From a virus: a stretch of 23,806 nt of DNA. The notes under the pieces are model-generated. The model was not told where the DNA came from. It saw only the letters and a list, made by a program, of their open reading frames with translations, and did no database searches. Numbering within the stretch: the stretch's first letter is position 1; every line of letters begins with the position of its first letter. The translations under genes and the position numbers were made by a program. Below are positions 445 through 23,806 of this stretch, piece by piece. The DNA lies in IMG/VR virus record IMGVR_UViG_3300042197_002016, positions 1 through 23,806 of that record; one strand, written 5' to 3'.

Positions 445-3400
445 ATGGAAAATAAAAAATTCCCCGAAAGTCAATTACCTATTAGAAAAACTTCCGAATT
501 ACTGCCGCAGGTTTTTCAAACAGCCGCCAACAAAAAATTCCTAGCAGCTACCCTCGATCCGCTAGTACAGCCGGGTGTTCTGCAAAAAACCGTAGGATAC
601 ATCGGAAGAAGATACGGTAAAACATTTAATGGTAATGATGTTTATCTTGATTCAGATCAAACTCTACGTAGTCGATATCAGTTAGAACCTGGGGTAGTAA
701 TAGAACAAGAAAACAAAGATACAAAATTTTATGACTATTTAGATTTTAAAAACATTTTAAGATTTTTTGGAAATACCGAAGAAGACGACAAGTTAGTAAC
801 TAATCAAGAACATTACAGTTGGGATCCTCCGATCACTTGGGATAAGTTTGTTAATTTTAGAGAATATTATTGGGTACCTGAAGGCCCCCCGCCGATAACT
901 ATCACTGGCCAATCACAGGTAATTGAAAGTACCTATAGAGTAAAATTAGGAGTTACTGATAGCTATATTTTGTTTCCTGATGGACTGACTAATAATCCGA
1001 CGTTGACATTATATAGAGGACAAAAATATAAATTTATAATCAATGCTCCGAAGAATGGATTTACAATACGAACATCGTATGATGCCGGTAGTTTGCGATA
1101 TAACCCGGATCTGGCATATTCTAAAGGATCTTTAGTCTTGTTCGATGACAAATTATGGAGAGCTCTTAATAACATTCCCCAAGGTGATGGAAGTACTATA
1201 GATGAAAATAGTCAAGATTGGGAATATGTAGAACCTGCGTCTGTCTCTACCTCTTTAGATTACAATCGCGGAGTGACTAATAACGGCATAGAAAGCGGCA
1301 CATTAACATTTGTAATACCGTTTGATGCTCCTGATGTGTTATATTATCAAAGCGATACTAACCCAAATAGATTAGGTAGATTTATTATTGGCGACATTGG
1401 TTCTAATACACGATTAGATGTAGAAAAAGAAATATTAGGTAAATCTCAGTATACCAGTAGTAATGGAATCACTTTTTCAAACGGAATGGTAATTAGATTT
1501 TCCGGTTTAACGGTTCCTCAAAAATACAACTCAGACGAATCATGGGTAGTAGAAGGTGTTGGCGAAAATATCACGCTGACGAAATTTTCCGATTTAATTA
1601 TTTCTAGCGGATTAAATGCAGAAGTGCCCGAGGTATTGTTCGACAATGCAGGATTTGATACAGAACCATTCGACGATGCTGCTTTTTATGCCGGCAAGAA
1701 AGATTATATTGTTATTAATCGTAGTAGCAATGATTCGAATCCTTGGTCTAGATATAACAGATGGTTCCATCGATCGGTTCTTGATCAAGCATATAAATTA
1801 GCAGGGTCAGAGTTTGATTCTAACGAAACTAATCGAGCGAAAAGACCGATCATCGAGTTTAAATCAAATATTAAATTATTTAATCATGGCGAAAAAGCAA
1901 AACTTTCCGTAGATTATATAGACGATTTTACCACTGATGTTTTCAGTAAGATCGAAGGCAGTAAAGGATATATCGTAGACGGAGAAGAATTATTTCAAGG
2001 TGCAAGGATATTAGTAACCGCTGATACTGATAGTTTAGCTAATAATAAAATATACCAGGTTAACTTCATAATACATAATGGAAATCGACAGATAAATTTA
2101 AGACCGACCGACGATTCCGATTCGTTGTTAGGGGAATGTGTTCTGGTAAAAAGAGGTGCTGCAAATAAGAGATTAATGTATCATTATGACGGAACACAGT
2201 GGATAAAAAGTCAGATTAAACAATCAGTTAATCAATCTCCTAGATTTGAAGTTTTTGATGAGGCAGGAATTAGTTTCTCAGACGTCGACAATTATCCAGT
2301 TTCCTCTTTTACCGGAACTGAAATTGTTAGCTATAAATTAGGAACAGGAATAGTAGATAGTGAATTAGGATTTTCACTAAGTTATCTTAACATAGGCAAT
2401 GTAGGAGATATTCAATACGAATTTGATTGGGAGATTGATTCTTTTTTCTACCAGATAAATCAGGTCACTTTTCAGAAATATATAAGAACAGGATTTTACA
2501 AGAACACTGTTGATGGTTCTTATAGGAACAGTTGGACAGTCACCGATTCTTCGTTTGTACAGCCTATTATCGATAGTAAGATTATCAGCGAGACAACGAA
2601 TAGTGTTGATTTTAATACGGTAGATTGGAATAAGTTTGATAATGAACCTAATACAGACGTAGCGATCTACTTAAATGGAAACCGATATAATGGAAATGTT
2701 ATCAGAACAAAATCTAAATTTGTTTTTGAAAATATGCTATCGATCGGCGATACAATTACGATAAAATTATTTTGTAATACATTACCAGATTTAGGATTTT
2801 ACGAAATCCCTATAGGATTAGAACGCAATCCTCTTAATGATACTTTGAAAAATTTTACTTATGGTGTAGCAGTAGATCATATTATGTCGGCTTTAGAATT
2901 TAATGAATCGTTAATAGGACCAACTGTTGGAGTTAATAATTTAAGAGATATAGCAGATTATATTCAATATTCAACAAAAATTCTTAAACATGCGGGAATA
3001 CCTGCACTGCCTATTTCTTTACTATGCGATAAGCAAATTAATTTAATTAAATCGATAGATTACGCTAAGAAAAAATATACAGAATTTAAAAGTGCTTTTT
3101 TAGATTTTTCAACAAGAATAGTTTACAATGAAAATATTTCCGAACTCTGCGATCAGGTGCTAACTGAATTAACAAGAACAAAAACGTCGAAAGATCCGTT
3201 TGCCGACAGCGATATGCTAGGTACCGGAGCATATAATGATATTATCTATCGAGTAGAAGATGTCGGAATTACTACTTTTGCGTTATCTGAAAAGTTTGAT
3301 CTAACTTCTGACAGCAGAAAAGCGGTCTATGTTTATCTTAATAATTCTCAGCTAGTAGCCGATCGAGATTACGAGTTTGATTCTGTATTTGGATTTTTAA

Positions 3401-6400
3401 AGATATTAATAGAATTGCAAGAAAATGATTTAATAACTATTAGAGAATACAATTCTACAGCGTCCTGTTTTGTCCCACCCACGCCAACTAAACTAGGATT
3501 ATATAAAAAATATCTCCCGCAGAAATTTTTAGATGATACCTATGTCGAACCTAAGTTAGTTATTCAAGGTCACGATGGCAGTATTAGTGTTGCCTATAAT
3601 GATTTTAGAGACGATCTTCTTTTAGAATTAGAATTTAGGATTTATAATAATATAAAAAGGCAGTACAATGAAAAAATATTCAATATTGATAATATTTTAG
3701 GTGGTTATTACGGTATCGGAGAATACAGCAAAGACAAAGTTGATGTTATTCTTAATAGACAGTTTTTACAATGGGTCGCTGATACAAATATAGACTATGT
3801 TAATAATATATATTTCGATAGCGAAAATAGTTTTACCTACACTTATTCTAATATGACTGATCGCAGTCAATCTGTAAATCTTCCCGGGTATTGGAGAGGA
3901 GTTTACAGATGGTTCTATGACACAGACCGCCCTCATCGATGCCCTTGGGAAATGTTAGGATTTTCAGAACAACCTGCATGGTGGGAAGATGAATATGGTC
4001 CAGCACCATATACCAGTGGTAATCTTTTATTATGGGAAGATCTAAGAGATGGAATAATACGTCAAGGCTCTAGAGCAGGAGTCTATGATCGATATAAAAG
4101 ATCTTCGATCTTAAGTCATATACCTGTTGATGGAGACGGAAATTTATTGAGTCCTCTAGATTCAAATCTAGCAGGAAATTTTTCTTTGATTAATAATCAA
4201 GGAGATTTTAAGTTAGGCGATTGTGCTCCAGTAGAATATGCATGGAAATCTAGTTCAGAATATCCGTTTGCTTTAATGACAGTGTTTTCACTATTGAAAC
4301 CGTTTGAGTTTGTCGGCGATAATTTTACATTGTCATCTACCGAGAACAATATCTTAAATCAGACTATTAATTCAAAAACAAAATATTTTTATACCATTCG
4401 TGATATCGAAATTCCTATTGCCGGTGAAATCTTTGGTTCTGGATTAATCAAATATGTAATGGATTATCTAAAAAGTTTTAATTTAAGTAACATAGATTTA
4501 CAGAATTTTTTAAATGGTATAGATGTAAGACTTTCAACGAGACTTTCGGGCTTTGTTGATCCCGAAAATCAGAAATACGTCCTAGACAGCAAAAATCCTC
4601 AAAGTACATCCGGCAGTATATTTGTTCCTGCAGAAAATTATGATATTATTTTTAATATTAGTAGTCCTGCAAGCACGATTTCTTATAGCGGTATTATTGT
4701 AGAAAAGACTGATAGAGGATTTAAAATCTATGGATACGATAAATTAAATCCATATTTTAATTATAATAAAGCCATACCTTCTCAAACAGATTCTTTAATT
4801 AATGTAGGTGGTATCAGTGAAAGTTTCATAGATTGGGCCGGAGAAAAATTTTATGGAAACGGTGTAATTATTAGATATAATAATGAATTTTATCGAACGC
4901 TCCAAAGTTTCACTTCCGGAAGTACGTTTACTCTTGATAATCTCAAGAAATTACCATCACTGCCAGTAATACAAGGTGTTAATGCATTATATAGAAGAAA
5001 TTTTGATACGCTTCGAGTTTCAAATTTAATTTATGGAACCATACTTTCTAGTGTACAAGATGTAGTTGATTTCTTTCTCGGATATCAAAAATATCTACAA
5101 TCTTTAGGATATGTGTTTGACGCATATAATTCAGAATTAGGAGTGTCGATTGATTTTTTCACATCGGCTAAAGAATTTATGTTCTGGACTAGACACAATT
5201 GGCAGGTAGGTTCACTAATCTCTCTAAGCCCGTTGTCTACTAAAATCAAACTGTCAACTAGAATCGGTGTTGTTGATAATTTGTTAGATAATTTTTACCA
5301 GTATTCTGTCTTAAAAAGTGACGGTAATGTTCTTGATCCGTCGGTTATAGAAGTTGTAAGAGATTTTCAAGAATTTACATTATCAACAAAAAACACTAAC
5401 GATGGAATTTATTTCTTTTCGGCACACACAGTCTTAAAAGAAAATGTGACAATTTTTGACGATCGTACGGTTTTTAATGATGTAATTTATGATAAAACCA
5501 CCGGATATAGACAGGAAAGGATGAAAAGCAGAGGATTCCGTACCACCGATTGGGACGGTGATTATACCAGCCCGGGATTTATGTTCGACAGCGTAAATAT
5601 CACAGTTTGGGAACCTTACACTGATTATAAATTAGGTGACATAGTTTCATACAAAAGTTTTTATTGGACAAGTTTAATTAATCAAGCTGGCTCCGAAGAA
5701 TTTATTAATGAAAATTGGTCAAAATTAGATTCTGTTCCTTCTAAAAAATTAGTAACAAATTTTGATTATAGAATTAATCAGATAGAAGATTATTATGATT
5801 TGGATTCGGAAGGATTGGGAAATTCTCAGAGAGATTTAGCTAGACATTTAGTTGGTTATCAGAAACGAGAATATCTATCAAATCTAGCAGAGGATGAAAT
5901 AATACAATATAAGTTGTATCAAGGCTTTATCAGAGAAAAGGGAACAGCAAATGCAGTTAAAAAGATTTTTGATAAAACCAGTGGCGTCGAAGATGACAGT
6001 TTAGTTTTAAAAGAAGAATGGGCATTATTATTATCTAGATATGGTGGCGTAGATCAAAAGATCGAAGTCGAATTTAATATTACTCGAAATAAATTAAAGA
6101 CAAATCCTCAGCCGGTAATTTTTACAGTTTCAGAAACATCGGGGCCTATTTTAGATCAGTTTGTAAGAATTCCTCAGGCGGATTTTACAATTAGTAAAAT
6201 TCCATTTACTACCAATATCAATCCTGTTCAATATTTTAATGACAATAACAGATCTGCAGGATTTGTGAAACTGGATCAAGTAGAATTTATTGTAGCCAAT
6301 GTCGATGAATTAATATCACTAGATATTAATCAAATTAGAGAAAATAATCATATATGGATCACGTTTTTATCAGAAATTTCGTGGACAGTTTGGAGATTTA

Positions 6401-9400
6401 ACAAATCTCCAATATTAACTATCAGCAGTATAATAAAAGAAGGGTCTCGAGTTATCATAGATTTTGGTAGACCGCATACATTCTCTATTGGGGATGTAAT
6501 AGGTATTAAAGAAATTCCCAATCTAACCGGTTTCCATCAGATCATAGAAATAGGACAGCGCATTGTAGTGATCGAAACTACATCGACACAACCTATAGAA
6601 TTTGATGGCAGTACTATAAACTATATCTATGAATTTACAGTCGCCAAATATTCAAAATACCAAGATCTTAATTTAGAAAAATCAGCAGGCCTAAAATCTG
6701 GTTCTAAGTTATGGATAGAACAAAATGAAAATCAAAGATGGGAAGTAGTTGAAAAAAATAAAATATATTCTTCCAAAGGATTGATGGATTACGGAACAGT
6801 TAATCCTAGAGAAACAGGATATCGAGTTCTTTACAGCGAGATCCTCGGCCAGTCTATTGTTAGTTTACCTCATTCTAATCAGGTCTTAATTTATAGAGAA
6901 TCATCAGAATTTCTATCTTTCTATGCCAATATAAATCTCCCAACGTACCTAGAAAATTCTATGAATTTTTCATTAGGCAAAGGTATGGCAATTAGCTCAG
7001 ACGGTAGATGGCTATTGATAGGAGCTCCTAATGCTAGTGGAATTAGATCTAAATTTATGGGAGAATATGACCCTAATGGACAGTATTTTCTAGGCGAAAT
7101 AACAAGATATGCCAATCGGTTATGGGCGGCCACTGATGATATGTTTGGTGACGGTAGTACCGTTGACGTTTATACAGATAGATGGGATCCTGTTGAAATC
7201 ATAGAAGCAACGCCTATCGGTAGATCTATGGGATACAGCAATCAAGGCTGCGTATTGATTTATGAATGGGCAAATCAACAATGGAATTATACTACTACAA
7301 TTTTAAGCCCTGCGGCAGACATAAATGAAAATTTCGGCCATGATATTAGCATAGGTAAAGCCGGAAAAAATTATTATGTGTCGGTAGCTGCTCCAGGCTC
7401 TTTAGAAAATCGTGGTCGAGTATACTTGTACAAGTATGAAAACAATGCTTGGAAAAATTTGCTAGATACCCGATATTCTGGAATTTATAAATCTGCAACA
7501 TTTTATCCAGCAGGATCTATTGTATGGTATGAAAATAAGTTATTCCAAGCGAAAATAGATGTAATCGGTGACGGTAGCACCATAGGATTAACGGAAGTGG
7601 TCAGCAACGAGTGGATACAAATTGATCCAGTAAGCACAGAGTCGTCATTGCCTAAAAATATTTTCTTAGATGATGACGGATCTACCCTAGCATCATCTAT
7701 GCTCAGCAATGACGAGTTAGCTGAGTTAACTAAGAACGGAGATCAGTTTGGTTATTCGGTAGCTATGAACTTTGATGGAAGTTTATTGTTTGTTTCTTCG
7801 ATTTACAGTGACGGTCAATTTTTTGCAAATTACAAAGGTGATTGGCGAATAGAAGTAATTTACAAAGAAGGTGATGTAGTTAGAAATAACGGCGGATATT
7901 TTAAATTGACCGACCCTAGATTTAACGTCGAGGATAGCACAGTAGTTTACACCAGTCAAAATGAAGACCCGGTTAGCGAACCCTGGATTTCAGTAGGCGA
8001 TAGCACCGATACTCCTACAGGAAAAGTTTTTGTTTATAAAAGAGATGCTGTGGATAGGTATCAATTAGTGCAGACTATTACAGCTGGCAATTTAAATGAT
8101 TTAAATGATACTACGGAGACATTTATTTCGTCTGGCGATCTTTTTGGTTATGATCTCGATATTGATTATAGCGGAACAACATTAGTTGTTAGCAGCCCTG
8201 AAGCTGATGTTAATCTTATTAGCCAAGGATCGGTGTATGTTTTTAAAAATGATAACTTATACAACACGGAATTTAGATTAAAGCAAAAATTAATTAGTTA
8301 CGAAAATAATGTAAACTTATTTTTTGGAAGTAGTATAGCAATAACTCCATCTACAGAAAAAATTGTAGTAGGAGCTCGAAATGCCCCTTTCAAAATATTT
8401 GCCAGGTTCGACGGCGATTTAGGAACAACGTTTGACGATGGAACTACTATTTTTTCTACCAATCAAGGATATCCGGGACAGGTGTACGTTTATCAGAAAA
8501 CTGATAGTGTTTACATATTGTCTGAAAAGTTAGAATCAGATGATCTTACCAGCTTTGAATCTTTCGGATTCAGTGTCGATGCTACAGCATCTAGAATATT
8601 GGTAGGCTCTCCTTATTTTCAAACCCAGAATGAATATAAAGGAATTGTAAGATTATTTGTTTCAAATCCAAATATACAATCCTGGAATGTTATTGGTGTA
8701 GAAGATAAACTTGTTGATATAGCTTTAATTGATGGAATATTTGTGATCGATGACATATTAGATGAAAAATTATCTAATCTTGATGTAGTTGATCATTTTA
8801 AAAATAAAATTATAGGTATAGCAGAACAAGAAATAAATTACAAACTAATGTATGATCCTGCGATTTATACATTAGGTGACGATAGTGTTGTGGTAGATAG
8901 CTCCCAAAATTGGAAAGATAAGCATATAGGTGAAGTTTGGTGGGATCTACGGACTGTAAAATGGATTGAATACGAACAAGGAGATACTTCTTACAGAAGT
9001 GGTAATTGGAACAAGCTAGCCTATGGCGCGATAGTTGATGTATATGAATGGGTAGAATCTAGGTATCTACCATCGGAGTGGAACACTTTAGCAGATACTT
9101 CTGAGGGGCTAGCAGAAAATATATCTGGTCAAACTTTATATGGAGACGAAATTTATTCCTTTAAAGAAAATTATAATATATTAAACGGTGAAATAACTGA
9201 AATTTTTTACTATTATTGGGTGAAAAATAAAAAAACTATTCCAAACGTTAAATTTAGAAGAAGATCAGTTTTTGATGTTGCTAGATTAATAGAAACTCCT
9301 CAATCGGGCGGAATCCCGTTAGTGGCAATGATATCTGCTGATCAAATGTTGCTGTTTAATTTTGATAGTTTATTAAAAGGAAATCAAAGTTTAATAAATG

Positions 9401-12400
9401 TCAAGTATAAAAAATCTGTCGAGTATTCGACACCTATACATCGCGAATATCAGTTGTTGACAGAAGGTCAGGCCGACAGTTTACCGACTAACCAAATAGA
9501 AAGAAAATGGATCGATAGCCTGATAGGTTTTGATGAACAAGGAAATAATGTTCCGGAATCTGATTTACCAGTTAAGCAGAGATACGGAATTAGTTTTAGA
9601 CCGAGGCAGAGTATGTTTGTTGATAGAACAAAAATACTTAAAATCATTATCGATAATATCAATAACATATTGACACAGCGTCCATTTGCAGATTCATTGG
9701 ATTTAAAAAATTTAAATTCTGTAGATCCTTTACCTAGCGAGGATTTAAATGAATATGATATAGCAGTTGATAGTTTTATAGATCTTTCTCAGGTCGGTAC
9801 AGCTAGAGTTAGACAGGCAAGGCTAGTTCCAAATATCGTCGACGGCGAAATAGAGTCCATTACAATTCAAGACACAGGGTTCGGATATAGAAATGCTCCT
9901 AGAATATTCATTGAAGGCACGGGCATTGGAGCAACTGCTGAAATTACAATAGACGGTCAGGGCAGGATAAATTCTGCTAGAGTATTGACTAGAGGCAAAA
10001 AATATACGTCGGCTGTGATATTAGTTCGACAGTTTTCAGTACTAGTAAGAAATGATCAGACAGCCAATAATTTTTGGAGCATTTATAGTTGGGATCAGCA
10101 AAGATTTAATTTTTATAGAAGCAGATCTCAAGGATTTAATACCACAATATATTGGGATTATAAAGATTGGTGGAAATCAGGTTATGGTATTTCGTCAAGA
10201 ATTAATGTAGAAATTAAAAATTATTACTTAGAGCCAACTTTATTTGACCTAATCGAAGGTGATTTAGTCAAAGTTACTGAATTTGGTAATGGTGGTTGGG
10301 CAGTGCTTGAGAAATCTCGAGACGGCCTAGGTGATATTGACGGAAAGTACAATCTTGTAGGAAGGCAGCGCGGTACATTATTTTTAAAAGATTCTTTATA
10401 TAATAAGAAAACTACTCCGTTAGGATTTGATAATGTTGGTAGTTTCGATTCTGCGCTGTATGATTTACAACCGATTCAAGAATTAAGAAATATATTTAAA
10501 GCCGTGAAGGAAGATATATTCATCGAAGATCTCTCAGCCGAATGGAATAAATTATTTTTTCTAAGTTTGAAATACATACTATCAGAACAGGAATACGTTG
10601 ATTGGTTGTTTAAGACCAGTTTTCTTGGCGCAGTACACAATATCGGTGAGCTAGAACAAAAATTATCGTATAAAAATGATAATCTAGAAAGTTACAAACT
10701 GTATTTAGACGAAGTAAAACCATATCGAACCACTATAAGAGAATTTACTAGTAGATATACTACATTAGATAATAATCTCTCGACAGTCGCTGACTTTGAC
10801 CTCCCCCCAACATACTCAGAAGTCGATGGTACAGTATTGCCAATTAATCGATATTTCGATAAAACTGATCAATATCCCTGGAAATGGTGGAAGGATAATC
10901 AGGGATTTGGTATAGCAGAGATACTGGTTGCAAATCGAGGCAGTGGATACATAAATGTTCCTAAAGTAATTATCGAAGGTAATGGACAAGAAGCTGCTGC
11001 TCGAGCATACATTTCTAATGGGCGAGTCACAAGAATTTTAGTTACGAATTCGGGTTACGGTTATACTAAAACTCCAACAATAACATTAGTCGGAGGAAAC
11101 GGTTCGTCTACTGATACCGCTGTTGCGGCAGCGGTGTTAGGAGATTCGTTGGTTAGAGCATTCGAAATTAAATTGAAATTTGATAGAATTTCTAAACTTC
11201 CAATTTATAATAATTTTTCTCAAACACAGACGTTCATAGCTACAGGAAACACGTCAGTGTTTAATCTCAATTATGCCTCTACTATAGATAAAAGTAAGAT
11301 CACTGTTCTTAGGAACGGCCAAATAATATTAAACAACGAATATGACATTTCTCTTTTTACGATAGAAACAGATCCTTATCAAATTTTGAGAGGACGATTA
11401 ACATTTGTAACAACTCCAACTATCGGAGATACTATTACAATAACTTATGAAAAGAATGACGAATTGTTAGACAGTGTATCGAGGATAGACAAATATTATA
11501 ACCCAACTAGTGGCATGAAAGGCAATGAACTAAATCAACTAATGACCGGAATAGATTTTGGAGGTGTGCAGATACAAGGGACCACATTTGATATTACCGG
11601 AGGCTGGGATGCATTACCATGGTTCACTGAAGGTTGGGACAGTGTCGAGTCTAACAGTGATTTTTATGTGGTTGCTGACGGTAGTACCAATGTTATTACC
11701 TTGCCTTATGTTCCTGAACCGGGACAACTAGTAACAATCTATATAAAAAGAAATTATATATCACCATTTATTGGATTGAGTCGAGATTCTACCTTTGAAC
11801 AACGTATAAATGATCTACAGTTTAACGAAATAGAACAAGAACCAAGATCGATTCGTATTGACGATCCTTACTATGATATGTATGACGGATCTACCGTCAT
11901 GCCGAACGGAAGAAAAACACCTCCAGAAGGCACAGTAATGCCTACTTTTATCGGTGACGGATCAACAGTTGTTATTGACTTTGCCGATCCGGTGACCGAT
12001 ACACCTTATATTACTACCAATGCAGGCGACACTTTAATTTTTAGACTTGTCGACAGCGACGGTTCATTAACAATAAACGATGTGAATCTAGTCGATACAT
12101 TGATATCGGGCGGGTCTTTGAATACCGCAGCAGGAGCATATGTAACCGCTAATGGAATGCTAGCAGAAGAGATTTCTATAGACGGAGATAAATTTATTAC
12201 TCCGGATCAAGTGCCTTCTCCTGAAGAAAATATTCCAGGCCAAGTTCTTGATAGTCTTAGTGTAAAAGTTTTCAACACCACTAAAACCGGAGCGGCCCCT
12301 TTACAAACTAAAATATATTTTGGTGATGGGTTGACTAAAATATTTGATATTGATTTAGAAATTTTACAAGTAAATTCATTAACAGTATACGTTAATAAAG

Positions 12401-14277
12401 ATAAGAAGTTACACGATATTGATTATCGAATAAATTTTGAAGACAATACTATAATTTTTAATACAGCACCAACAGTCGGCGATTTTATAGAAATTATTTC
12501 TATTGGACTAGGTGGTGTAGAAATTCTCGATTATCAAGAATTCAATGCCGACGGCGAAACATCTTTGTTCCTTACTAGAGCCAAATATGATCAAACTACT
12601 GGTATTTTCGTTACAGTTGATGGAATAGTTACCGATGTTGATTTTGTTAACAGCGTAGAATTTACAATAGAAAATAATTTCACAATGGCACAATTTGGAA
12701 TACCGCCGGCTCAAGGAACAAGTATTAAGATTGTTTCTTTGGGAGCATCAACAGTTGATACCGATTCGAGCAATTTGCCTATTATAAGTGTTAATCGTCA
12801 GCAATTCGTCTTTGACGGAAGTACTCGTTCTTTTTCTATAGACGGATTCGTAACACTTACTAGAGGGTCTTCGAAGTCTAGCATACTAGTTTCTGTAAAC
12901 GATAGCTTCTTGATCGGAGTGGACACAATATATACGGTCTACAACGGAAACAACAATGAAATTTTTATAGGACTAGATCCAGAAGAAGCTATCGGTAATA
13001 TTACCCCTAGCAATATTTCAGTCTTCGTAAATAACGATCTTCAAAGATTTGTGATAGATTATGTCTTTGATGGAACTCAAAATTTAATCATTATTCCTAG
13101 AACTAATTTAGCCATTGGCGACGAAATAAAAATCGAAGTTGATCTTAGATCCGAATATACTATAATTGCTAATGACGTTTTAACAATATCTAATAGTGTT
13201 TCTTTGTCTGAAAATGACGTAATCGAAATTACCTGGTTTGGCGAATACCCAACTATGGATCTTATATCAGATGAATTTACCGGCGGAAAAGTTAACTATC
13301 AACTTAGCAGAACCCCATTAGAAATCGCATATGTTTGGGTATATTTAAACGGTGTAAGATTAACCCAAGATCAAGATTACGAAATATCGTTACCTAGAAA
13401 TGTAGTGTATCTAAAAACAGAAACTACAGAAAATGATCTTATAAAGATAGTAAACTTCGGCTCGTCTTCTTATAATAGTCCAGTGGCATATGAGGTTTAC
13501 AAGGATATGTTAAATTTTAACCATTTTAAAAGATACAGCAAAAATAAACAGATAAAGTTGGCCAGAACATTAAATTATTATGATACAGAAATTATAGTTA
13601 CAGATGGATCGTTATTATTTCAACCATCTGCTAGCAGAAACTTAGCCGGAATGATTGAAATTAACAACGAAAGAATAGAATATCTGCAGAAAAATGGAAA
13701 TATTTTATCCGGATTACGCAGAGGATCTCAGGGTTCGGCGATAGCCGAACTGCACGATGCGGACAGCTTCGTAGTAGATATCGGAGTTGAAGAAACTATT
13801 CCATATAATGAACAACAGTTTAGGAATGATTTTGTCAGCGACGGAAGTAGTTTACTCATAGGATCATTAGATTACATACCTACAAAGAGTGATAGAAATT
13901 TTTATAGAATAGTAAATGACCAAGGAGATCACATTAGTATTCCGGAGAATTATGGTTGCTGTGACGAAATAGAAGTATTTGTTGCCGGAAAAAGACTGAG
14001 AAAACAGTCAATTTCTATATATAATGAAGATCGAGGATCAATTAGTCCGGAAGCAGATATCATGCTAGAAGCTGAATTTAGTGTAGACGGATCCTCTCCA
14101 CAAATACGACTCACTTCGCCGGTTCCGGCAGGAATTAGAATTACAGTAATTAAAAGAATTGGCAATATTTGGTATGAAAGAGGAGAGTCCTCGGCTTCGA
14201 AAGGTAAAACTTTCTTAGAAAACGATACACCTTATGTGAGATTTATAAATGAAAAATCCAGTGAATTACCCGAATAA
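445..14277 (+). CDS. Giant modular virion/baseplate protein (4610 aa), positional equivalent of gp7
   Basis: The frame is uninterrupted for 4610 codons. ATG lies two bases after the gp6 stop with no clear Shine-Dalgarno, suggesting translational coupling. The N-terminus (residues ~10-150, with FLAATLDPLVQPG and SWDPPITWDKFVNFREYYW) resembles large structural proteins of marine T4-like phages that I recall. Modules seen in order are: carbohydrate-binding-like repeats with a GDGST turn (~219-262, ~2208-2253, ~2351-2396) and related ones without it (~1718-1765, ~2465-2520); a Trp-rich block (~1145-1280, YWRGVYRWFYDTDRPH); a helical segment (~1783-1845) with K1832-G-T resembling T4 gp7 and P2 gpI; FG-GAP-like propeller repeats (~2170-2740); Gly-X-Gly-Tyr repeats (~3138-3194, ~3493-3560); and beta-rich DGST-type repeats (~3590-4560). 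An INNERIEY...RRGSQG motif lies at ~4404-4445. No membrane segment or signal peptide was seen. T4 gp7 has 1032 residues, so this protein is about 4.5 times longer. The likely role is baseplate wedge plus peripheral or host-contact structure. A virion role is fairly sure; gp7 equivalence is inference. Confidence 0.85.
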   Translation: MENKKFPESQLPIRKTSELLPQVFQTAANKKFLAATLDPLVQPGVLQKTVGYIGRRYGKTFNGNDVYLDSDQTLRSRYQLEPGVVIEQENKDTKFYDYLDFKNILRFFGNTEEDDKLVTNQEHYSWDPPITWDKFVNFREYYWVPEGPPPITITGQSQVIESTYRVKLGVTDSYILFPDGLTNNPTLTLYRGQKYKFIINAPKNGFTIRTSYDAGSLRYNPDLAYSKGSLVLFDDKLWRALNNIPQGDGSTIDENSQDWEYVEPASVSTSLDYNRGVTNNGIESGTLTFVIPFDAPDVLYYQSDTNPNRLGRFIIGDIGSNTRLDVEKEILGKSQYTSSNGITFSNGMVIRFSGLTVPQKYNSDESWVVEGVGENITLTKFSDLIISSGLNAEVPEVLFDNAGFDTEPFDDAAFYAGKKDYIVINRSSNDSNPWSRYNRWFHRSVLDQAYKLAGSEFDSNETNRAKRPIIEFKSNIKLFNHGEKAKLSVDYIDDFTTDVFSKIEGSKGYIVDGEELFQGARILVTADTDSLANNKIYQVNFIIHNGNRQINLRPTDDSDSLLGECVLVKRGAANKRLMYHYDGTQWIKSQIKQSVNQSPRFEVFDEAGISFSDVDNYPVSSFTGTEIVSYKLGTGIVDSELGFSLSYLNIGNVGDIQYEFDWEIDSFFYQINQVTFQKYIRTGFYKNTVDGSYRNSWTVTDSSFVQPIIDSKIISETTNSVDFNTVDWNKFDNEPNTDVAIYLNGNRYNGNVIRTKSKFVFENMLSIGDTITIKLFCNTLPDLGFYEIPIGLERNPLNDTLKNFTYGVAVDHIMSALEFNESLIGPTVGVNNLRDIADYIQYSTKILKHAGIPALPISLLCDKQINLIKSIDYAKKKYTEFKSAFLDFSTRIVYNENISELCDQVLTELTRTKTSKDPFADSDMLGTGAYNDIIYRVEDVGITTFALSEKFDLTSDSRKAVYVYLNNSQLVADRDYEFDSVFGFLKILIELQENDLITIREYNSTASCFVPPTPTKLGLYKKYLPQKFLDDTYVEPKLVIQGHDGSISVAYNDFRDDLLLELEFRIYNNIKRQYNEKIFNIDNILGGYYGIGEYSKDKVDVILNRQFLQWVADTNIDYVNNIYFDSENSFTYTYSNMTDRSQSVNLPGYWRGVYRWFYDTDRPHRCPWEMLGFSEQPAWWEDEYGPAPYTSGNLLLWEDLRDGIIRQGSRAGVYDRYKRSSILSHIPVDGDGNLLSPLDSNLAGNFSLINNQGDFKLGDCAPVEYAWKSSSEYPFALMTVFSLLKPFEFVGDNFTLSSTENNILNQTINSKTKYFYTIRDIEIPIAGEIFGSGLIKYVMDYLKSFNLSNIDLQNFLNGIDVRLSTRLSGFVDPENQKYVLDSKNPQSTSGSIFVPAENYDIIFNISSPASTISYSGIIVEKTDRGFKIYGYDKLNPYFNYNKAIPSQTDSLINVGGISESFIDWAGEKFYGNGVIIRYNNEFYRTLQSFTSGSTFTLDNLKKLPSLPVIQGVNALYRRNFDTLRVSNLIYGTILSSVQDVVDFFLGYQKYLQSLGYVFDAYNSELGVSIDFFTSAKEFMFWTRHNWQVGSLISLSPLSTKIKLSTRIGVVDNLLDNFYQYSVLKSDGNVLDPSVIEVVRDFQEFTLSTKNTNDGIYFFSAHTVLKENVTIFDDRTVFNDVIYDKTTGYRQERMKSRGFRTTDWDGDYTSPGFMFDSVNITVWEPYTDYKLGDIVSYKSFYWTSLINQAGSEEFINENWSKLDSVPSKKLVTNFDYRINQIEDYYDLDSEGLGNSQRDLARHLVGYQKREYLSNLAEDEIIQYKLYQGFIREKGTANAVKKIFDKTSGVEDDSLVLKEEWALLLSRYGGVDQKIEVEFNITRNKLKTNPQPVIFTVSETSGPILDQFVRIPQADFTISKIPFTTNINPVQYFNDNNRSAGFVKLDQVEFIVANVDELISLDINQIRENNHIWITFLSEISWTVWRFNKSPILTISSIIKEGSRVIIDFGRPHTFSIGDVIGIKEIPNLTGFHQIIEIGQRIVVIETTSTQPIEFDGSTINYIYEFTVAKYSKYQDLNLEKSAGLKSGSKLWIEQNENQRWEVVEKNKIYSSKGLMDYGTVNPRETGYRVLYSEILGQSIVSLPHSNQVLIYRESSEFLSFYANINLPTYLENSMNFSLGKGMAISSDGRWLLIGAPNASGIRSKFMGEYDPNGQYFLGEITRYANRLWAATDDMFGDGSTVDVYTDRWDPVEIIEATPIGRSMGYSNQGCVLIYEWANQQWNYTTTILSPAADINENFGHDISIGKAGKNYYVSVAAPGSLENRGRVYLYKYENNAWKNLLDTRYSGIYKSATFYPAGSIVWYENKLFQAKIDVIGDGSTIGLTEVVSNEWIQIDPVSTESSLPKNIFLDDDGSTLASSMLSNDELAELTKNGDQFGYSVAMNFDGSLLFVSSIYSDGQFFANYKGDWRIEVIYKEGDVVRNNGGYFKLTDPRFNVEDSTVVYTSQNEDPVSEPWISVGDSTDTPTGKVFVYKRDAVDRYQLVQTITAGNLNDLNDTTETFISSGDLFGYDLDIDYSGTTLVVSSPEADVNLISQGSVYVFKNDNLYNTEFRLKQKLISYENNVNLFFGSSIAITPSTEKIVVGARNAPFKIFARFDGDLGTTFDDGTTIFSTNQGYPGQVYVYQKTDSVYILSEKLESDDLTSFESFGFSVDATASRILVGSPYFQTQNEYKGIVRLFVSNPNIQSWNVIGVEDKLVDIALIDGIFVIDDILDEKLSNLDVVDHFKNKIIGIAEQEINYKLMYDPAIYTLGDDSVVVDSSQNWKDKHIGEVWWDLRTVKWIEYEQGDTSYRSGNWNKLAYGAIVDVYEWVESRYLPSEWNTLADTSEGLAENISGQTLYGDEIYSFKENYNILNGEITEIFYYYWVKNKKTIPNVKFRRRSVFDVARLIETPQSGGIPLVAMISADQMLLFNFDSLLKGNQSLINVKYKKSVEYSTPIHREYQLLTEGQADSLPTNQIERKWIDSLIGFDEQGNNVPESDLPVKQRYGISFRPRQSMFVDRTKILKIIIDNINNILTQRPFADSLDLKNLNSVDPLPSEDLNEYDIAVDSFIDLSQVGTARVRQARLVPNIVDGEIESITIQDTGFGYRNAPRIFIEGTGIGATAEITIDGQGRINSARVLTRGKKYTSAVILVRQFSVLVRNDQTANNFWSIYSWDQQRFNFYRSRSQGFNTTIYWDYKDWWKSGYGISSRINVEIKNYYLEPTLFDLIEGDLVKVTEFGNGGWAVLEKSRDGLGDIDGKYNLVGRQRGTLFLKDSLYNKKTTPLGFDNVGSFDSALYDLQPIQELRNIFKAVKEDIFIEDLSAEWNKLFFLSLKYILSEQEYVDWLFKTSFLGAVHNIGELEQKLSYKNDNLESYKLYLDEVKPYRTTIREFTSRYTTLDNNLSTVADFDLPPTYSEVDGTVLPINRYFDKTDQYPWKWWKDNQGFGIAEILVANRGSGYINVPKVIIEGNGQEAAARAYISNGRVTRILVTNSGYGYTKTPTITLVGGNGSSTDTAVAAAVLGDSLVRAFEIKLKFDRISKLPIYNNFSQTQTFIATGNTSVFNLNYASTIDKSKITVLRNGQIILNNEYDISLFTIETDPYQILRGRLTFVTTPTIGDTITITYEKNDELLDSVSRIDKYYNPTSGMKGNELNQLMTGIDFGGVQIQGTTFDITGGWDALPWFTEGWDSVESNSDFYVVADGSTNVITLPYVPEPGQLVTIYIKRNYISPFIGLSRDSTFEQRINDLQFNEIEQEPRSIRIDDPYYDMYDGSTVMPNGRKTPPEGTVMPTFIGDGSTVVIDFADPVTDTPYITTNAGDTLIFRLVDSDGSLTINDVNLVDTLISGGSLNTAAGAYVTANGMLAEEISIDGDKFITPDQVPSPEENIPGQVLDSLSVKVFNTTKTGAAPLQTKIYFGDGLTKIFDIDLEILQVNSLTVYVNKDKKLHDIDYRINFEDNTIIFNTAPTVGDFIEIISIGLGGVEILDYQEFNADGETSLFLTRAKYDQTTGIFVTVDGIVTDVDFVNSVEFTIENNFTMAQFGIPPAQGTSIKIVSLGASTVDTDSSNLPIISVNRQQFVFDGSTRSFSIDGFVTLTRGSSKSSILVSVNDSFLIGVDTIYTVYNGNNNEIFIGLDPEEAIGNITPSNISVFVNNDLQRFVIDYVFDGTQNLIIIPRTNLAIGDEIKIEVDLRSEYTIIANDVLTISNSVSLSENDVIEITWFGEYPTMDLISDEFTGGKVNYQLSRTPLEIAYVWVYLNGVRLTQDQDYEISLPRNVVYLKTETTENDLIKIVNFGSSSYNSPVAYEVYKDMLNFNHFKRYSKNKQIKLARTLNYYDTEIIVTDGSLLFQPSASRNLAGMIEINNERIEYLQKNGNILSGLRRGSQGSAIAELHDADSFVVDIGVEETIPYNEQQFRNDFVSDGSSLLIGSLDYIPTKSDRNFYRIVNDQGDHISIPENYGCCDEIEVFVAGKRLRKQSISIYNEDRGSISPEADIMLEAEFSVDGSSPQIRLTSPVPAGIRITVIKRIGNIWYERGESSASKGKTFLENDTPYVRFINEKSSELPE
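6961..8660 (+). repeat. FG-GAP-like beta-propeller repeats inside the giant protein
   Basis: Protein-level repeats cover residues ~2173-2740. Each unit pairs an FG-S-type start (FGHDISI, FGYSVAM, FGYDLDI, FFGSSIAI, FGFSVDA) with a strand ending in a variant of VVSSP or LLIGAP, then a RVYLYK / SVYVFK / QVYVYQ strand. I count about six units: near residues 2173, 2297, 2435, 2567, 2626 and 2707. This is the pattern of FG-GAP blades in integrin-alpha-like propellers. Carbohydrate-binding-like modules with GDGST turns are inserted between blades (~2208, ~2351, ~2465). Seeing the repeats is direct; the fold is inferred. Confidence 0.6.
11224..14150 (+). repeat. C-terminal tandem beta-sandwich-like repeats of the giant protein
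   Basis: Residues ~3594-4570 repeat a pattern: a DGST-like turn followed by an alternating hydrophobic strand, then a 'VYVN' or 'VFVN' strand with a short insertion, a 'DY.I' segment, and a 'GD.I.I' strand. The turns are at residues ~3745 (ADGST), ~3838 (GDGST), ~3960 (GDGLT), ~4036 (DGET), ~4124 (DGST), ~4466 (DGSS) and ~4548 (DGSS). Similar repeats occur, from memory, in long structural proteins of marine T4-like phages. They probably form a chain of small beta domains extending from the baseplate. Confidence 0.55.
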
Positions 14278-14929
14278 ATATACTGCAGAAGAGCAAATAG
14301 ATAACTCGGAGAACAGTAAAAACATGCCTAACGAAAGAAGCGGATTTCATTTCGAAGGACACATAAAGATCTTTGATCCGGAAACCAAAGAAGTGTTTAT
14401 AGACAAAAGAAATGCTATACACTACGAAAATATGAGTGTGGCCATGGTTAATGCACTGTCGAATCAAGGTCAAGGAACTATTTTCGAAATGGTGTTCGGC
14501 TCGGGTGGCACCGCCGTAGATCCAACAGGGTTGATAACATATCTCACACCAAACACTGTAGGAGTTAACAGCAGTCTGTATAATCAGACTTATTCTAAAG
14601 TAATCGATCAAAATTCGATATCTAATAGCGATCCCGTGAGGAATAAAATGCAGATAAGACACATAAGTGGCGCTACTTATAGTGACATAATTATATCTTG
14701 TATTTTAGATTACGGTGAGCCGGACGGTCAAGAAGCTTTTGATAATAGTCAGGATTTGAGCGGAAATTTTGTTTTTGATGAGCTAGGCTTGAAATCTTAT
14801 AATCCTAATGGGACCGGAAAATTATTAACTCATGTAATATTTCACCCCGTTCAAAAATCATTGAACCGATTATTACAGGTCGATTATACGATTCGAATAC
14901 AGAGTTTAACTGGCTTTAATGAGGTATAA
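14249..14929 (+). CDS. Small virion structural protein of unknown function (226 aa)
   Basis: The frame begins 29 bases before the end of the giant gene and ends three bases before the next ATG. The segment from residue ~31 (GFHFEGHIKIFDP, then KRNAIHYENMS) resembles, from memory, small structural proteins encoded beside the fibre genes in marine T4-like phages. It is not similar to T4 gp8 as far as I recall that sequence. No signal peptide or membrane segment is seen. The start is uncertain. ATG 14249 has a weak GTGAG upstream. ATG 14324 (residue 26) has GGAGA at 14308-14312 and sits ~44 bases after a candidate late promoter (14273-14280), so late mRNA might make a ~201-residue form. The conserved block begins after both starts. 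A role in the baseplate or in attaching fibres is inferred from position only. Confidence 0.8.
   Translation: MKNPVNYPNKYTAEEQIDNSENSKNMPNERSGFHFEGHIKIFDPETKEVFIDKRNAIHYENMSVAMVNALSNQGQGTIFEMVFGSGGTAVDPTGLITYLTPNTVGVNSSLYNQTYSKVIDQNSISNSDPVRNKMQIRHISGATYSDIIISCILDYGEPDGQEAFDNSQDLSGNFVFDELGLKSYNPNGTGKLLTHVIFHPVQKSLNRLLQVDYTIRIQSLTGFNEV
14273..14280 (+). promoter_or_regulatory. Candidate T4-type late promoter (AATAAATA)
   Basis: The octamer matches the NATAAATA late promoter motif of T4-like phages (T4 consensus TATAAATA). It overlaps the stop codon of the giant gene. By T4 spacing, transcription would begin about six bases downstream, near 14286. That is after the ATG at 14249 but before the in-frame ATG at 14324, which has its own GGAGA. 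By eye this is one of only two ATAAATA copies on the + strand in the window. A chance match in AT-rich DNA cannot be excluded. Confidence 0.4.
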
Positions 14930-20744: not shown

Positions 20745-20752
20745 GATAAATA
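20745..20752 (+). promoter_or_regulatory. Candidate T4-type late promoter (GATAAATA)
   Basis: This exact NATAAATA match lies in the 44-base gap between the third and fourth fibre genes, one of the two largest gaps in the window. Expected initiation is about six bases downstream (near 20758), leaving a leader of ~19 bases that includes GGAG (20765-20768) ahead of the ATG at 20777. Position, spacing and motif all agree with a phage late promoter read by a gp55-like sigma factor, which is not in this window. It would give separate late expression of the last fibre and the 327-residue protein. Confidence 0.6.
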
Positions 20753-22537: not shown

Positions 22538-23521
22538 ATGGCTAACAGTGTCGGCGGAATAATCGAAGATGTTGATTATAACAGTATTAGAAATAAAATT
22601 ATTGCAGTATTAGGAACAGGTACAGGCAATACTGGTTATGGTCAAACTGCTCGAATACAGAGTTCGGCCGTAGCTGACGGAAATACCATTACAGCAGCGC
22701 AGTGGTCGAATCTTCGATTCGATATTTTTAACTGTCTGGTCCATCAGAACGGAACTACCCCAACCATTGTTCAGAAAGCTGTAGGAGATGTGGTACAGTA
22801 CGGGGCCGGACAGCCTAATAATGCCTATGATACTCTAGCAGATACTATAACAACAAATAGATTTACCTTGGGGACAGGGCGGTTTGTTACTGAAAATTTA
22901 GCATCAGCCACTTCAGGAGATGTTACCTGGTTAAGTCAAATTTATGCAGATATTACCTATACATTTAGTACGGCAGAAACGGCAAGATTTTTCTTTAACA
23001 GTGGAGGTCAGTTAAGAGTAACATCCAGTTTTGTTAAAAGCGTTACTAAAGACCAGACTACTTCATGGGAAAATCTTATAAGTTCAGCCGGCCAACAAGG
23101 CTTTGGCGGCCAAGTACCCAGTACTGGATTTAGTCCGCTAAATGGAACTAACTTTTTCAGGTTGACGAATACCTTCCAAACGTATTATACCGCCACTGCT
23201 AGCGGCCCTTATTCTAGCAATACATATAGATTGCAGGCTAGATCAAATGTGGCCGATAATTCTTCCGGAACTGCTAATCAAGTTTTTATTAGAGTTCTTT
23301 TAAATGATCCTTATGTTGATCCTCCAGTAGGTGTTCCTCCTGCCTCTACTGCACCAGTTCCTCCAGAAGACTCTGTTAGCGGAACGTTAACAGTTACTAC
23401 AGATATGATCCGTGCCAGTGGAGTTATGCAACCGGCACCGACCACCGGTAATTTTACTACCAGCGGTCCAAATCCCACTGGTGGTGGAACCACGTCAATC
23501 GGTTCATTCATTTATTCATAA
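22538..23521 (+). CDS. Virion structural protein with Pro/Gly-rich C-terminus (327 aa)
   Basis: GAGGA at 22527-22531 overlaps the previous stop and fixes the ATG. The N-terminal ~75 residues (DYNSIRNKIIAVLGTGTGNTGYGQT, quoted here only as key residues Y15 to T39, then an ITAAQWSNLRFDI segment) are familiar, from memory, as a conserved structural protein of T4-like cyanophages and pelagiphages encoded near the fibres. The middle (~130-260) is beta-rich with aromatic strands. Residues ~262-327 are low-complexity Pro/Gly/Thr (DPPVGVPPAS, PNPTGGGTTS), probably a flexible or surface-exposed tail. It does not carry the N-terminal docking module of the four fibres. The exact virion location is unknown. 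Confidence 0.8.
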   Translation: MANSVGGIIEDVDYNSIRNKIIAVLGTGTGNTGYGQTARIQSSAVADGNTITAAQWSNLRFDIFNCLVHQNGTTPTIVQKAVGDVVQYGAGQPNNAYDTLADTITTNRFTLGTGRFVTENLASATSGDVTWLSQIYADITYTFSTAETARFFFNSGGQLRVTSSFVKSVTKDQTTSWENLISSAGQQGFGGQVPSTGFSPLNGTNFFRLTNTFQTYYTATASGPYSSNTYRLQARSNVADNSSGTANQVFIRVLLNDPYVDPPVGVPPASTAPVPPEDSVSGTLTVTTDMIRASGVMQPAPTTGNFTTSGPNPTGGGTTSIGSFIYS

Positions 23522-23529
23522 TTTTTTGT

Positions 23530-23583
23530 CCATATTTTTCTCCTGGTAAATAAACTGTACAGTTTACTACGGAGGAAATATGG
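23530..23583 (+). promoter_or_regulatory. Long hairpin sequestering the ribosome binding site and start codon of the next gene
   Basis: Pairing read from the sequence: 23530-23537 with 23576-23583 (8 bp, including the start codon); U23538 bulged; 23539-23543 with 23571-23575 (5 bp, one G-U, covering the GGAGG Shine-Dalgarno); 23546-23548 with 23568-23570; and 23551-23556 with 23561-23566 around a GTAC loop. The inner part is a 16-base perfect palindrome (23551-23566). In a transcript read through from the fibre genes, both GGAGG and AUG would be paired. There is no U-tract after it on either strand, so it is not a typical terminator. Translational control is inferred from T4 genes e and soc. 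Confidence 0.6.
23545..23552 (+). promoter_or_regulatory. Weak candidate late promoter inside the hairpin (GGTAAATA)
   Basis: This matches NATAAATA except for G at the second position. By T4 spacing, initiation would fall near 23558, in the hairpin loop. The resulting mRNA would lack the 5' arm and leave GGAGG (23571-23575) and ATG 23580 free. The position is what makes it attractive; the motif alone is weak. Confidence 0.3.
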
Positions 23584-23806
23584 ACGAGCGTCTTAAAAAT
23601 GCTTTGGATTTTTCTAACTACAGACAGACACTTGCAGTGCAACGTCGATCATTGAATGAAAAAATGCAGGCAAAATTGACCTATGGTCACAATGGCGGTA
23701 TTTTTAAAATCGATAGATCTTTGCTGACTTTCGTATGGTCATTGTGTGCTGGACGCAGAACAGCAGATATCGTTTTATTAGATCAAAACGATAATCCTAT
23801 ATTAAT
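23580..23806 (+). CDS. Conserved phage protein of unknown function, N-terminal part (runs off window)
   Basis: ATG 23580 is preceded by a strong GGAGG (23571-23575), and the frame is open to the window end (75 codons plus two bases). The sequence begins MDERLKNALDFSNYRQTL and continues with YGHNGGIFKIDRSLLTF and VLLDQNDNPI. From memory, short proteins with this NYR...NGG.F..D..L..FV...VLLD.N.NPI pattern are conserved but uncharacterised in T4-like marine phages. No enzymatic motif is visible. It is not part of the fibre family, and its expression is probably set separately by the hairpin spanning its start. The function is unknown. Confidence 0.8.
   Translation, partial: MDERLKNALDFSNYRQTLAVQRRSLNEKMQAKLTYGHNGGIFKIDRSLLTFVWSLCAGRRTADIVLLDQNDNPIL

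Follow-up and report, generated by a model that had tools for sequence, protein, structure and literature searches.

The leader of the last gene in a 23.8-kb viral contig fragment (the window, 23,806 nucleotides in full) is best explained as a translational lock in which a late promoter is embedded, a reading that we consider very probable. Read-through mRNA from the upstream fibre genes would hold both arms of a hairpin, in which the Shine-Dalgarno (SD) sequence and, here, the AUG as well would be paired, and such long messages would be silent for the controlled gene. RNA polymerase with a gp55-type late sigma factor would initiate at GGTAAATA between the arms, and the late transcript, expected to start near 23558 and to lack the 5' arm, would have its SD freed and be translated. 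Messages begun at this promoter are probably the sole translated form of the gene, whose expression would be kept apart from that of the fibre operon without any terminator; the ORF that follows, which is glycosyltransferase-like and overlaps the stop codon of the controlled gene, would probably be translated by coupling.

The window carries the end of a gp6-like baseplate wedge gene, a 4610-aa ORF, a fibre cluster, a 327-aa gene and the gene start at 23580, the controlled gene being cut off by the end of the fragment (Table 1). The closest matches of the baseplate fragment are jumbo phages of the RaK2/CBB/PA5oct/Atu_ph07 kind, at 45-50% identity, and the phages concerned are an uncultured giant T4-related group. 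The 4610-aa ORF is a single reading frame (445-14277) that separates the baseplate wedge from the fibre cluster, a position equal to that of the giant structural gene CBB_236 (3340 aa) of phage CBB. The distance from the upstream stop codon to the ATG is 54-66 nt in 67 of 70 leaders, which is room just sufficient for the hairpin and the promoter; the usual spacing between adjacent fibre genes of the window is about 10 nt. A ribosome that terminates on the upstream gene would reach no further than the base of the stem.

Table 1. Features of the lock and its surroundings (window coordinates)
Feature	Position	Strand	Basis or remark
GATAAATA, late promoter-like site of upstream fibre gene (ATG 20777)	20745..20752	+	orthologous sites in relatives
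Upstream gene, 327 aa, last of the tail-fibre cluster	22538..23521	+	stop codon 58 nt 5' of ATG 23580
5' arm of hairpin, with anti-Shine-Dalgarno CUCC at 23540-23543	23525..23551	+	fold; co-variation with 3' arm in relatives
GGTAAATA, putative T4-type late promoter octamer	23545..23552	+	NNTAAATA at the same place in 74/77 leaders; recurrent 5' of relatives' structural genes
Predicted transcription start, ~6 nt past the octamer	23558..23559	+	T4 late promoter geometry (PMC2988020)
3' arm of hairpin, holding SD and start codon	23562..23588	+	fold
Shine-Dalgarno GGAGG	23571..23575	+	pairing probability 1.00 in long transcript, 0.28 in short
Controlled gene, 5' part, 75 of ~117 codons, DUF4376-like predicted fold	23580..23804	+	complete in L003

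When the segment 23520-23600 is folded, a hairpin of 26 pairs spanning 23525-23588 is obtained (-27.7 kcal/mol, z -5.9), a stability that none of 200 dinucleotide shuffles matches. GGAG at 23571-23574 pairs with the CUCC of the 5' arm and the start codon AUG (23580-23582) lies within the stem, so that the claim of a preliminary description of this DNA that the hairpin pairs both GGAGG and AUG is borne out; the hairpin itself also stands, with a stem that extends about 5 nt further on each side than the 23530-23583 first given for it. In the minimum free energy structure the octamer belongs to the 5' arm, where it had been placed, and adjoins the loop. For an RNA that begins some 6 nt beyond the octamer the predicted folding energy is only -2.7 kcal/mol, and its SD is mostly free, although the drop in SD pairing probability between the two forms is by itself a weak measure, as shuffled leaders already average about 0.7. 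It is hardly conceivable that this structure is an intrinsic terminator of the fibre operon, as might be supposed of a strong hairpin behind a stop codon, for the 3' arm has no U run following it, it is absent from the list produced by a terminator scan, and the start of the next gene lies in that very arm. The same scan found no terminator after the hairpin, in keeping with the terminator-free arrangement first proposed.

The promoter reading of the octamer, which had been described as late-promoter-like, draws on its recurrence in relatives that encode a matching sigma factor. N[A/G]TAAATA is enriched between genes in the relatives, whereas similar control octamers are rare there or missing, and NATAAATA and GGTAAATA precede structural genes, the GGTAAATA variant recurring 5' of other structural genes that include the baseplate wedge genes. 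Octamers of the TATAAATA class recur before late genes at orthologous structural genes, although GGTAAATA differs from TATAAATA itself at two positions, a point against the reading. A gp55-type late sigma factor is encoded in the contigs of 10 of 11 relatives and is 38-44% identical to the one annotated in CBB, a phage whose structural genes are described as preceded by ATAAATA (PMC5259590). Judged from sequence, GGTAAATA is a T4-type late promoter. Many leaders of the 117-aa gene carry nnTGC, often unpaired, after ATAAATAA (23553-23557 in the window), and the ATAAATAAnnTGC pattern is confined to this gene in the contigs scanned. Two other octamer sites may be recorded here. In the window AATAAATA at 14273 falls within a called ORF (14249-14929), which probably starts in reality at an ATG some 50 nt downstream (ATGCCTAAC), because the orthologs (214 aa, MSDELQ...) begin 3' of the equivalent site. 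At G003:58559-58589, within L070, there are two divergent late-type octamers, one of which, GATAAATA, shares bases with the Shine-Dalgarno region of a baseplate-hub gene on the opposite strand.

At least 567 relatives of the 117-aa protein are present in viral contigs, and 77 distinct leaders were examined. The NNTAAATA octamer is kept in 74 of these and, in 70 leaders, ends 24-31 nt 5' of the ATG, mostly 25-28 nt. Folds with z at or below -2 were obtained for 57 of 74 leaders, with the octamer in the apical loop in most relatives; in the predicted structures the SD core is paired in 57 of 73 leaders and the AUG in 36 of 73, so pairing of the start codon is not universal. RNAalifold, applied to a plain MAFFT alignment of the leaders (A2), predicted zero pairs because the arms are too diverged for sequence alignment, and an arm-swap test was therefore used instead. 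In 42 clusters of diverged arms, the mean duplex energy is -14.3 kcal/mol for own arms and -9.7 for swapped ones, and no permutation in 50,000 was as good as the own pairing. Co-variation holds for each part taken alone, from promoter to SD (0 of 50,000 permutations) and from SD to start (1 of 50,000), and compensation can be read directly in pairs such as CUGAUUA/UAAUCAG in L026 versus CUAGUUA/UAACUAG in L010. The compensatory changes that the preliminary description had asked for, and whose absence it would have counted against the lock, are thus found across dozens of diverged leaders, and on this comparison the pairing is maintained by selection.

An inverted repeat of this form could also act as DNA, as an operator or repressor-protein site over the late promoter in the manner of I-TevI on its own promoter, and an inner 16-bp palindrome, TAAACTGTACAGTTTA, does surround the predicted start site. 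We regard this as quite improbable: it is the pairing that is conserved and not the sequence of the palindrome, G-U pairs make up 39 of 365, and the + strand RNA is more stable than that of the - strand in 17 of 21 representatives, as expected for selection on mRNA and not for a DNA palindrome. About as improbable is a signal acting in trans (a protein, an RNA or temperature) that opens the hairpin on the long transcript, with the internal octamer adding late expression; some relatives have stems of moderate strength (-8 to -16 kcal/mol), which would suit such a signal, but no loop or stem motif is conserved beyond the promoter and nnTGC, and there is no Rfam match.

It is clear that the lock is not universal across relatives, since several of them hold the octamer with a weak hairpin (L007, L019, L027, L047, L105 and L122). 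L007 and L008 have, in place of the fibre-cluster gene that normally lies upstream, a 2OG-Fe(II) oxygenase gene and a DUF6065 gene (L007/L008:132-1446), and there the hairpin is weak despite the retained promoter. The three most distant orthologs have no octamer at the equivalent position and no comparable SD hairpin either, as would be expected if a lock without a promoter would silence the gene. These three also bear on a further reading, in which a long and near-perfect stem right behind the fibre stop codon serves mainly as a processing or 3'-end-protecting element of the upstream fibre mRNA, for example as an RNase III substrate, and pairing of the SD is a by-product. Orthologs that lack both the hairpin and the local promoter are difficult to reconcile with this, as is a stem that covers the next gene's SD and surrounds a late promoter in nearly all relatives, and we hold this reading to be improbable, if a little less so than the two preceding ones.

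The same phages provide a control for the promoter lock, in the form of 64 promoter-plus-gene sites in ten contigs of relatives, 10 of the sites belonging to this gene and 54 to others, including baseplate wedge, baseplate hub, fibre and virion protein genes. No strong promoter-enclosing hairpin was found at the 54 other late promoter sites of those contigs, where the arms pair weakly (-2 to -14 kcal/mol), and the arms of the 117-aa gene reach -22.6. At the control sites (G001-G010, L054-L090) own arms are in fact less complementary than swapped ones, 19,982 of 20,000 permutations being at least as good, although some dependence among the contigs and among orthologous sites makes the exact p-values less certain and leaves the sign unaffected. 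This suggests selection against hairpins in ordinary late-gene leaders; the trend in the control arms is opposite, and late leaders therefore appear generally to avoid hairpins while the 117-aa gene keeps one.

The complete protein, 117 aa, is available in L003, where the next ORF overlaps its stop codon; the glycosyltransferase label of that ORF reflects a general resemblance only, and it has no Pfam hit. An AlphaFold model of the 117-aa protein (pLDDT 88.7) gave several matches named DUF4376 in a BFVD fold search, at modest values (E 3e-3 to 1e-1, TM 0.4-0.65). For none of 28 family members was there a Pfam match above the cut-off, with DUF4376 absent even among the weak ones; PHROGs, Pfam and PDB sequence searches returned only chance-level matches, and no homolog of this protein or of the glycosyltransferase-like gene was found in the phage collection. 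Prefoldin subunits, the best PDB fold matches (Z about 7), were set aside as a result common for long-helix models. DUF4376 proteins include fibre chaperones encoded directly behind their fibre gene (PMC7289586, PMC10579305), and the controlled gene follows genes of the fibre cluster. A DUF4376-like fibre chaperone is, on the strength of the model, a lead and not an assignment.

The purpose of such a lock would be to set how much of a probable fibre chaperone is made, and when. Because a late promoter-like site is also present in the upstream fibre operon itself, at 20745, insulation of dosage is more likely than, or is likely besides, control of timing alone, and should the transcripts from upstream be late as well, the rationale established for T4, that of blocking early expression, would not be directly transferable. 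One tentative extension, to which we give somewhat less than an even chance, is that of a late-to-late insulator by which a catalytic fibre-assembly factor and the coupled glycosyltransferase-like genes are kept independent of abundant, simultaneous fibre transcripts, the e/soc design thus serving dosage and not timing and being conserved in a large uncultured jumbo-phage lineage. Experimental work has described the promoter-in-hairpin design in a handful of T4-like genes, where it mostly serves to prevent early expression. In dozens of diverged phages a single orthologous gene has kept it through compensating changes, which is strong comparative evidence that the gating is selected, and the avoidance of hairpins at other late promoters of the same phages adds to that case. 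The design is hereby extended to jumbo phages of the T4 superfamily, in a setting that points to a second use, insulation from a neighbouring late operon, and the relatives supply natural variants of the stem for use in tests.

The genes e, soc, 49 and I-TevI of T4 combine a late promoter with a hairpin over the ribosome binding site (PMC3014915), which supports the original comparison with e and soc. In T4 gene e the SD and start region is sequestered in long transcripts, and late promoters in the region of the 5' strand yield late transcripts that lack this strand and are translated (PMC3014915). Homing endonuclease leaders likewise have a late promoter so placed that the late RNA is without the 5' arm (PMC2988022). 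The leader described here resembles these, with SD and AUG paired in the predicted fold of the long leader and the late promoter inside the hairpin, as judged by the place of the octamer and the fold of the short transcript, and by its sequence features it belongs to the T4 e/soc/I-TevI kind. The RBS hairpin is shared with the leaders of T4 soc, 49, I-TevI/II/III and segB and of Aeh1 mobE, whereas the genes and hosts are different, and neither a homing endonuclease nor a protein operator was found here. With the RaK2-like jumbo phage CBB it shares the same class of octamer (ATAAATA) 5' of structural genes and, in its relatives, a gp55-type sigma; the passages of PMC5259590 consulted make no mention of hairpin control. 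The silent transcripts of T4 are early or middle ones, early in the case of gene e, whereas here the upstream fibre genes have a late promoter-like site, and the T4 gene serves lysis (lysozyme), whereas here a gene behind the tail-fibre genes encodes a product that is probably fibre-associated. The leader is a new and widely conserved case of a known design, without a new principle, and it goes beyond T4 gene e in that its conservation spans many diverged phages with co-varying arms.
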